A stretch of 14,328 nucleotides of DNA from Alphaproteobacteria bacterium (GTDB lineage: Bacteria; Pseudomonadota; Alphaproteobacteria; Micavibrionales; UBA1664). The notes under the pieces were generated by a model. The model made no database searches. It worked only from the letters and a program-made list of their open reading frames with translations, and was not told where the DNA came from. Location: assembly GCA_030427215.1 (NCBI GenBank), contig JAUHXB010000006.1, forward strand, positions 1 to 14,328, read 5' to 3'. The translations under genes and the position numbers were made by a program. Below are positions 1-1,290 of this stretch, piece by piece (the stretch's first letter is position 1; every line of letters starts with the position of its first letter).

Positions 1-163
1 TTACGACATTAAAGGGGTCATTGAGATCACTCACCCATGTTTGTGCAATTTTTTTTGATCGTTCCCCCACTAATCCTTGGTCAGGGCCATAAATTATAAT
101 GACGCGCGCCTTGGGGTCAGGGTTTTTAACAAAGGGTTCAATCTGTTTGAAGGTTAATTTCAT
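1..163 (-). CDS. holA: DNA polymerase III delta subunit, N-terminal part (cut by window edge)
   Basis: Only the first 54 codons are present, read leftward from an ATG at 163. The translation starts MKLTFKQIEPF and contains IIIYGPDQGLVGERSKKIA followed by WVSDLNDPFNVV. The YGPDxGLVxER and DPFxVV signatures are typical of the delta subunit of the clamp loader, which opens the beta sliding clamp during replication. The start codon overlaps the lptE stop in an ATGA, so the two genes are probably translationally coupled. The lptE-holA order is common in Gram-negative bacteria, including Alphaproteobacteria. The rest of the protein lies outside the window. Identification rests on the motif and the neighbour together. 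Confidence 0.85.
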   Translation of the reverse strand, partial: MKLTFKQIEPFVKNPDPKARVIIIYGPDQGLVGERSKKIAQTWVSDLNDPFNVV

Positions 164-636
164 CGGTTAAAATAAATTTCCAATTGCGTGATAATGTTAT
201 TGGATAACGCCCTTAAACCTTGTTCACGTGCATCTTGTTCGGTGATAAAGGTTGTAAATTGCCCGGCCAAGATATTATATCCGGTTGTTGATCGGATATC
301 GCGCACGAGCACAGCTTTGTTATTGTTTAAATCAATCAGGCGCATTGTGGTTTTCAAACGAAGTTGAGCGCGCGAGGCCTCATCATCCTTATCAATGCCG
401 ATTTCAACAATTGTTTCTTCAATCGCGGAGACATTGAGTTGATATCTTGGGTTTGAGGCATATCCTTTCCTATGAATGTGATCAATCAAATGATTGCGGA
501 CAATTTGCCCTTCACGATTGGGAATAATACCAATTTCAATATTGGATAATGCGCGCTCTGGCGATTTGGTCCCATAAACAGGCGAAAATCCGCATGCGGT
601 TATAATAAGAAGGCCAATTAAACTTAAATATTTCAT
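160..636 (-). CDS. lptE: LPS-assembly lipoprotein LptE
   Basis: The product has 158 residues. It begins with a lipoprotein signal peptide whose lipobox (LIITAC) places the lipidated cysteine at residue 15, followed by GFSPVYG, the usual start of mature LptE. LptE plugs the LptD barrel in the outer membrane and takes part in placing lipopolysaccharide on the cell surface. Length fits the short alphaproteobacterial LptE family. The stop codon overlaps the holA start. No strong Shine-Dalgarno or clear own promoter is visible. The divergent palindrome at 680-703 carries TATAAT-like sequences on this strand too, but without a good -35. Assignment rests on lipobox, length and holA linkage, because LptE sequences diverge strongly. 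Confidence 0.82.
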   Translation of the reverse strand: MKYLSLIGLLIITACGFSPVYGTKSPERALSNIEIGIIPNREGQIVRNHLIDHIHRKGYASNPRYQLNVSAIEETIVEIGIDKDDEASRAQLRLKTTMRLIDLNNNKAVLVRDIRSTTGYNILAGQFTTFITEQDAREQGLRALSNNIITQLEIYFNR

Positions 637-674: not shown

Positions 675-703
675 TTGACATTATAGGAATTATATCCTAT
701 AAT
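675..703 (+). promoter_or_regulatory. Consensus sigma-70 promoter for the 709-1290 gene pair
   Basis: TTGACA at 675-680 and TATAAT at 698-703 are separated by exactly 17 nt, a perfect match to the housekeeping consensus. The -10 box ends 5 nt before the ATG at 709, so transcription should begin at or within a base or two of the start codon, giving a leaderless mRNA. There is no Shine-Dalgarno before the ATG, which agrees with this. Confidence 0.8.
680..703. promoter_or_regulatory. Perfect palindrome, candidate operator
   Basis: ATTATAGGA (680-688) and TCCTATAAT (695-703) are exact reverse complements separated by the 6 nt ATTATA. The element fills the space between the -35 and -10 boxes and includes the whole -10 box, the classic position for a repressor that blocks RNA polymerase. 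Because of the symmetry it also places TATAAT on the minus strand, facing lptE. No terminator-like T-run follows it. The cognate regulator is not identifiable in the window. The symmetry is directly visible; the operator role is inferred. Confidence 0.6.
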
Positions 704-708
704 ACCTT

Positions 709-1056
709 ATGACTTATTCAGATACAAACGACACGCCACCTAAACCTAAAAAATCTTATCATGATCAAATCATGATGACGGCTGCTCAGCTTAAGGCCTC
801 AACAGATAAAAATGATGATGACACGCCGACCGAAGTTTTGATGCAACAATTAAAAACCCTAGGCCGCCTACACCATTTAATGGCAAAGGAAGCGCAATTG
901 AAAATCAATGAAAATCGCGAGGCCTTTCAATCCATTTCAATGGCTCTTCGGGCGCAAAACCAATATTGCCGGACCGCCCTTGCCCTTCAATATTTGGAAG
1001 AAAGACAAGATAAAATGGCAAATGCGTCAAACGAACTGCAAAATGAAAATAAGTGA
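709..1056 (+). CDS. Small conserved-type protein of unknown function, first of a pair
   Basis: The product has 115 residues, is hydrophilic, and has no signal peptide or membrane segment. The first 40 residues are rich in Asp, Lys, Thr and Pro and are probably disordered. Residues 41-110 look continuously helical, with a segment ISMALRAQNQYCRTALALQYL. Small proteins with a similar ALRAQxQCR core are, from memory, found next to TGPxTxEGKA proteins like the one that follows, so the pair may be a conserved unit. No function is known to me. Translation probably starts on a leaderless transcript. The next gene begins 9 nt after the stop. The reading frame is supported by its promoter and spacing. 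Confidence 0.7.
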   Translation: MTYSDTNDTPPKPKKSYHDQIMMTAAQLKASTDKNDDDTPTEVLMQQLKTLGRLHHLMAKEAQLKINENREAFQSISMALRAQNQYCRTALALQYLEERQDKMANASNELQNENK

Positions 1057-1065
1057 TTAAAATCA

Positions 1066-1290
1066 ATGAAATATATGACTCATCGCAGACGTAAAAAGAT
1101 TGAAAATGCGAAAAAATTTAAGCCTTGGGAACACTCAACCGGCCCTAACACAGATGAGGGAAAGGCCATATCATCTCAAAACGCCATGAAACATGGCATG
1201 CGAAGCGCCATGATGTTGAATCTTTACAAAGCCATGGCTGACCAAAATCGATATTTGCGTGAGGTTATGCAAGGAAATCGCTTCGGGTGA
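1066..1290 (+). CDS. Small basic protein with TGPxTxEGKA...NAxKHG signature
   Basis: The product has 74 residues with a very basic start (HRRRKK). Residues about 19-45 carry FKPWEHSTGPNTDEGKAISS and then NAMKHGMRS. This signature recurs in short, uncharacterised bacterial proteins, some of them in phage-like or mobile contexts. The basic, Pro/Gly-rich stretch could bind nucleic acid, but that is a guess from composition. It follows the 115-residue protein by 9 nt and should share its transcript. An in-frame ATG at 1075 would remove three residues and cannot be excluded, since neither start has a clear ribosome binding site. Confidence 0.7.
   Translation: MKYMTHRRRKKIENAKKFKPWEHSTGPNTDEGKAISSQNAMKHGMRSAMMLNLYKAMADQNRYLREVMQGNRFG

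Follow-up and report, generated by a model that had tools for sequence, protein, structure and literature searches.

The window, by which we mean the whole 14,328-nucleotide stretch of DNA analysed here, contains an exact TTGACA-N17-TATAAT promoter sequence at positions 675-703. It is the only exact match when spacers of 15-19 nt are allowed, while shuffled versions of the window hold a mean of 0.04 such promoters, with at least one in 8 of 200 shuffles. The -10 hexamer ends 5 nt before the ATG at 709 that opens a pair of short genes, ORFA and ORFB. The relevant features are:

160..636, minus strand: lptE-like lipoprotein gene, the divergent neighbour (name taken from the initial annotation)
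675..680, plus strand: -35 hexamer TTGACA, exact sequence match
680..703, no strand assigned: operator-like palindrome ATTATAGGA-N6-TCCTATAAT, conserved core TAGGA-N6-TCCTA
698..703, plus strand: -10 hexamer TATAAT, exact sequence match, within the right palindrome arm
709..1056, plus strand: ORFA, 115 aa, leaderless start suggested by its position, helical model
1030..1037, plus strand: AACGAACT box in the terminal part of ORFA, recurring 3' of the promoter in relatives, on the sense strand only
1059..1068, plus strand: AAAATCAATG, holding the ORFB start codon and also found in the 3'-element core of other units of this genome
1066..1290, plus strand: ORFB, 74 aa, a small basic protein (KPWExSTGPxTxEGK..NAxKHG)

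The arms of the palindrome, ATTATAGGA at 680-688 and TCCTATAAT at 695-703, are 100% complementary and separated by a 6-nt centre. The initial annotation had described a consensus promoter combined with an exact 9+9 palindrome and had read the palindrome as an operator laid over the promoter; both features are present at exactly these positions, with the arms spanning the spacer and the -10 hexamer. A dyad-symmetric site that overlaps the spacer and the -10 box, as seen here, is one of the features of a repressor-operator sigma-70 promoter, and a palindrome so placed occupies the classical position of a repressor. The further proposal that a single protein could act on lptE through minus-strand -10 boxes found no support. 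The best -35 for the minus-strand TATAAT at 685-680 matches 2 of 6 positions over spacers of 15-19 nt, and a minus-strand promoter towards lptE is unsupported because a usable -35 is absent. The product of the lptE-like gene (160..636) has no Pfam or NCBIfam match at E<=1. A fully symmetric version of the site, TTGATATTATAGGAATAATATCCTATAATATCAA, which could fire both ways, lies before hemF in the relative G034 (L385/L189).

The palindrome recurs in this genome as part of a promoter. Searched alone at up to 3 mismatches, it has 15 matches in the whole genome (1.49 Mb), compared with 1 for a reversed control. TTGAC directly precedes one arm at 14 of these 15 places (the exception, C286, has TTGCG), and they therefore represent the same promoter; many copies unrelated to promoters, which would have spoken against the initial annotation, are not what the genome-wide search returned. 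The combined promoter-palindrome pattern occurs at 22 places with up to 2 mismatches, 20 of which were kept after removal of C150 and C268 as chance-like, and at 31 places with up to 3 mismatches (reversed controls, 3+3). Exact TTGACA-N17-TATAAT sequences, with the palindrome not required, number 11 in the genome (reversed control, 1+1), and all 11 are palindromic, with at least 5 of 6 core positions complementary. Over nine genomes the same holds for 44 of 62 exact-consensus promoters, where a random model gives about 1%. The proportions are 11/12 in G101, 11/15 in G103, 5/8 in G034 and 3/4 in G067, four genomes picked for this comparison because they are site-rich, and 1/1 in G010, 1/2 in G019 and 1/5 in G087. 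Three genomes count against a shared operator: G118, of the same genus, has four exact-consensus promoters and none with such a core (0/4), G087 has only the 1/5 just given, and the exact-promoter scan of G046 found zero exact-consensus promoters.

The pattern is also widespread among relatives. We surveyed 142 genomes of the order to which the window belongs, an order that holds Micavibrio MAGs and that we take to be the Micavibrionales of GTDB; NCBI taxonomy places the genus Micavibrio in Bdellovibrionota. With up to 2 mismatches the pattern is present in 91 of the 142 genomes, some single matches among these looking chance-like, and the reversed control gave, by our own count, 13 matches in 12 of the same genomes. 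Up to about 20-27 near-consensus copies occur per genome. Conservation of the palindrome in relatives, named at the outset as a test of the idea, is thus seen in these 91 genomes and likewise at the head-gene and ORFB loci described below. Among named genomes the exact pattern occurs at 47 loci, 18 of them in Micavibrio or Alphaproteobacteria records, and viral contigs contain only 2 exact matches. The order includes epibiotic bacterial predators (PMC3189940).

One target of the promoter is a phage-derived gene. A phage major-head gene (PF19821, E 9e-80; phrog_3437) is found in 103 of the 142 genomes of the order (G000 to G141), most with a single match, and in L102 a T7-type scaffold gene (PF05396) lies ahead of it. 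The PF19821 locus resembles the head locus of a domesticated phage or gene-transfer agent. Examples and neighbouring features are:

L142:484-1353, and also L102 and L163: phage-head gene, PF19821
L102:1003-1407, minus strand: PilZ-like gene, Pfam E 5e-4, narrowly below the cut-off
L122, L163, L168, L173, L194, L205 and L214: PilZ-like gene, identified by eye

We assembled 69 head-gene upstream regions, 29 from loci already at hand and 40 fetched, out of more than 100 matches listed; the copy in the window's own genome was left out as it runs into the end of its contig, and the query protein itself came from a motif-found locus. In each region the best -35/-10 pair with a 17-nt spacer was chosen blind to the palindrome. 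A promoter with up to 2 mismatches was present in 37 of 69 regions (shuffled, 76/1380) and one with up to 3 mismatches in 48 (shuffled, 459/1380). Promoters with up to 3 mismatches that also carry the palindromic core were found in 32 of 69 regions and in 2 of 1380 shuffled ones, this joint threshold being missed by the remaining 37. In the 37 best promoters, spacer positions 11-15 carry 1.2-2.2 bits and arm positions 21-23 carry 1.2-1.7 bits, and of the -10 positions 24-25 are invariant and 26-29 reach only 0.35-0.8 bits. Because the arm positions outscore -10 positions 26-29, the arms are conserved in their own right. In 8 of 11 loci inspected, the divergent neighbour of the phage-head promoter is a PilZ-like gene, and a motif of the form TATCAACGCC..TTGCGTCT was seen by eye to recur within the leaders of capsid sites.

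The promoter also heads the ORFA-ORFB gene pair in relatives. An alignment of the window's ORFB with eight relatives identifies the ORFB family in 58 of 142 genomes. At the 25 of 30 loci that could be located, a promoter with up to 2 mismatches is present at 18 and is combined with the core at 14; without the seven alignment seeds, promoter and core occur together at 9 of 18 loci, compared with 2 of 750 in shuffles of all loci. Where promoters tied, the core decided between them, and the shuffles were treated alike. These numbers agree with the initial view of a palindromic promoter driving a gene pair. At E<=1e-3 the ORFB family numbers 2259 related proteins, of which the 120 listed (P0001-P0120) are without a Pfam family. 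ORFA is more elusive: direct search with the window's protein finds it in 1 of 142 genomes, its own, and the family is visible only with an alignment. One protein from close relatives, P0139 (58 aa, 96% identical to ORFA over the covered half), is a shorter version set by a gene caller and starts at an internal ATG. Divergent ORFA relatives are alike at their N-termini from the ATG at 709, often beginning MTD, MTN, MTE or MTY, and the start at 709 is therefore favoured over the internal ATG of P0139. The predicted folds of ORFA and ORFB are helical and have no PDB match at E<=0.001, and neither protein matched Phd in a profile search. ORFA relatives occur on two Polaromonas plasmids, where the translated next genes are not ORFB-like. 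The initial annotation had envisaged a prophage or defence switch. Its phage side is supported by the phage-derived head gene behind the promoter (32/69), while its defence side found no counterpart in a PADLOC scan of ORFA, ORFB, ORF1451, ORF4496 and one mini-Phd protein, which returned 0 defence families; an anti-phage defence role was rejected on the absence of a match for these five proteins.

The spacing between promoter and start codon points to a leaderless layout. We counted this spacing over 163 distinct sites, comprising 125 non-capsid sites of relatives, 20 sites of the window's genome and 18 capsid sites. An ATG lies 5-6 nt past the -10 hexamer at 67 of the 125 non-capsid sites of relatives, and among ORFB promoters with up to 2 mismatches it lies at +5 to +7 in 15 of 18. 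The window's own genome has an ATG at +5/+6 in only 5 of 20 sites and at +7 in 2, and capsid sites have leaders of about 130-350 nt with an ATG at +5/+6 in 0 of 18. The leaderless layout suggested earlier from the 5-nt distance in the window is considered conserved because the short spacing is common among the non-capsid sites of relatives.

What is observed is that the promoter recurs, that its palindrome is conserved outside the hexamers as well, that the ATG spacing is kept and that particular downstream classes are linked to it. On the basis of these sequence comparisons, we propose, with a probability of roughly 0.6, that the palindrome is the operator of a dimeric repressor common to about 20 promoters in this genome and to many relatives. 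The sequence at 675-703 would act as a sigma-70-type consensus promoter with a palindromic operator (TAGGA-N6-TCCTA) covering its spacer and -10 box. A putative dimeric repressor, serving some twenty promoters here and their counterparts in many relatives, would block RNA polymerase when bound. Its release would yield a strong leaderless ORFA-ORFB transcript starting at or beside the ATG. The regulon would include the order-wide phage-head gene, the ORFA-ORFB operon, genes for Phd-like mini-antitoxins and numerous reduced units headed by the promoter. We infer that the binding protein is a repressor and a single one, and likewise its release signal and the transcription start. The genes downstream of the sites are without an obvious common theme, which counts against a shared operator, and inspection by eye of the genes listed after sites revealed no apparent candidate for a DNA-binding regulator. 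SOS/LexA regulation was set aside, no SOS gene having been noticed after sites.

Many copies of the promoter head small dispersed units. The window copy heads an intact two-gene operon, presumably the ancestral form, and many other copies head shrunken units, of which one, in G009, has the appearance of an insertion. The following features define them:

675..680 equivalent (TTGACA): left boundary of the homologous units dispersed in relatives' genomes, based on eight g9 copies
L008, L009, L012, L015, L016, L018, L029, L034 and L037: units with a 14-bp-stem 3' element

Within this genome, a AATAAAATCAAT core with up to 1 mismatch lies within 330 nt after 17 of 20 copies (a raw count, shuffle-free), 68-108 nt from the -10 box in 12 of them and 193-195 nt away in five; in three of these five a mini-Phd frame separates the -10 box from the core. 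The core is diverged in L005 and absent in L039, and its match in the window is chance-like. One subtype of this 3' element forms a 14-bp stem around AATAAAATCAAT, with 84% of cells paired compared with at most 42% when the structure is slid along the alignment. Its covariation score was reached by 2 of 500 shuffles, the structure having been derived from the same sequences, and its 5 pairs changed on both sides were reached by 146 of 500. An Rfam scan of the window and 7 loci of this genome gave no match for the 3' elements. The presence of AAAATCAATG at the ORFB start may be due to chance because the 14-kb window has three occurrences of this 10-mer and AAATCAAT is sparse in relatives (downstream at only 12 of 138 sites, with 1 upstream and 1 antisense); through their AAAATCAATG core, the units in this genome are weakly linked to those of relatives. 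REP-like stretches were seen by eye inside several relatives' units, and a CGTC-type REP-like stretch (CGTCATTGCGAAGG...GGCAATCC) at 1307-1343 of the window. When the g9 copies and those of this genome were read by eye, neither terminal inverted repeats nor duplicated target sites were noticed. Between genera, the genes found after units recur, namely hemF, thyA, argS, lpxC and murB, as judged from reading the sequences, not by HMM.

These units raise the alternative that the palindrome is the left end, as a DNA hairpin, of small non-autonomous mobile units and has a secondary operator role or none, which we regard as unlikely. Several observations are in line with mobility. The eight g9 copies have unrelated sequence in the 25 nt before TTGACA and are alike from TTGACA onward, five of them also sharing the middle part. 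Between a trmL-like gene and hemF, G009 has a unit of roughly 300 nt whose left edge, TTGACA, lies at the end of the trmL-like gene; the two genes are close neighbours in L383, L384 and L386 from other genera. As a housekeeping control we used hemF upstreams, 29 of which were located among the 30 best loci, with genus g43 outside the sample; a promoter with up to 1 mismatch and a core of at least 4 was present only in G009 and G034 (2/29), and the joint threshold was reached by 1 of 29 (shuffled, 1/870). The AACGAACT box lies downstream at 57 of 138 relatives' sites, a set that includes duplicates, and at 0 upstream and 0 antisense positions within 500 nt, and a 3' hairpin is present in units of this genome. 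Other evidence argues against a mere mobile end. The phage-head locus keeps the palindromic promoter over much of the order, and because it is boxless (0/18 capsid sites) the promoter and palindrome evidently persist without the rest of the unit; among the 20 sites of this genome, only the window copy has the box (1030-1037). The -35 hexamer and the ATG spacing are retained, which a simple transposon end would not need. In G101, G102 and G103 of genus g43 a site lies 141-259 nt ahead of hemF, which speaks for inheritance in this genus. G010, of the same genus as G009, offers no clean empty site because another ORF separates its trmL-like gene and hemF. For M. aeruginosavorus ARL-13, a complete lack of transposons is reported (PMC3189940). 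A shared operator and dispersal may also be combined: a phage-type repressor circuit could have been spread through the order by small mobile units with the operator-promoter as their left end, bringing housekeeping genes such as hemF, thyA, lpxC and argS beside the same switch as drives the fixed phage-head gene, a scenario we put forward tentatively and consider doubtful.

A different reader of the motif is conceivable as well. TTGAC (1.75-2.2 bits, partly a result of selection) and the arms outscore the last four -10 positions, and ordinary sigma-70 promoters are not known to show such -10-poor conservation. This would fit recognition of TTGAC + TAGGA + TCCTA as one site by an activator, or else by an alternative sigma factor, in place of a repressor. 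A perfect sigma-70 consensus hardly needs an activator, however, and the symmetry of the site indicates a dimer while its position covers the -10 box, so that we find this explanation improbable.

Phd-like mini-antitoxins are associated with a subset of the promoters. From 25 matches to these small proteins, 15 loci were located, and 11 of the 15 have a promoter with up to 1 mismatch and a core of at least 4, seven of these being alignment seeds. At the seven seed loci the ATG lies 6-7 nt past the -10 box. Four of the eight non-seed loci (L343, L344, L359 and L360) have a promoter that deviates at no more than one position, with 4 or 5 of the 6 core positions complementary, while L346, L348 and L349 are without such a promoter and that of L345 is weak. 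Phd/YefM is the best of three Pfam families scanned, with scores under the cut-off. These loci would be expected if the mini-antitoxins bound the palindrome and controlled their own and the other copies in the manner of toxin-antitoxin systems. The family is rarer (20/142 genomes) than the motif (91/142), and we therefore rejected a Phd-like protein as the common repressor; at L232 (G103), which sits after a palindromic promoter, the Phd-like frame even ends early. Taken together, control by these proteins is very unlikely. A gene for a zeta-toxin-like kinase (Pfam E 3e-10) lies behind the truncated frame at L232. In self-regulated Phd/YefM toxin-antitoxin operons, too, a small Phd-like gene immediately follows the palindromic promoter; here, in contrast, a toxin-like gene was noticed near L232 only and the motif extends far beyond the family.

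Finally, a strong promoter in AT-rich intergenic DNA that happens to look symmetric, as the consensus promoters in 8 of 200 window shuffles might suggest, is refuted by the recurrence within the genome and in 91 of 142 genomes and by the head-gene, ORFB and exact-promoter results, leaving chance with a negligible probability.

Promoters covered by a repressor are already known, and the set described here, present in multiple copies, often leaderless in layout and including a fixed phage-head locus, would be a variant of them. Operator-overlapped sigma-70 promoters in general combine a strong promoter with a dyad that covers its spacer and -10 box, as is the case here; the present promoters differ in number, with up to about 20-27 near-consensus matches in a genome, and in the leaderless layout of many of them. 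CGTC-tagged REP elements, short palindromes dispersed between genes, have been reported in Micavibrio aeruginosavorus (PMC3733652). The present palindrome differs in sequence and in being a promoter with fixed -35, -10 and ATG spacing. In our literature searches, no title or abstract opening describing this promoter family was noticed. If the shared operator is real, the order would possess a large uncharacterised regulon with a 29-bp site, strong leaderless output and a conserved phage-head target. The 29-bp site would be a ready bait for the regulator and would make joint switching of the head locus and the dispersed units testable.

The same exact pattern with TAGGA/TCCTA half-sites is found in Clostridia (L051, L071, L077, L090 and L094), before ORFs that by eye resemble cysteine desulfurases. 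The Clostridial promoters differ in having a further TCCTA before the -35 hexamer and an ORF start far behind the -10 box, and they probably represent an independent Rrf2-type site. The Clostridial site with its extra TCCTA is possibly an Rrf2/IscR-type operator and may hint at the family of the regulator.
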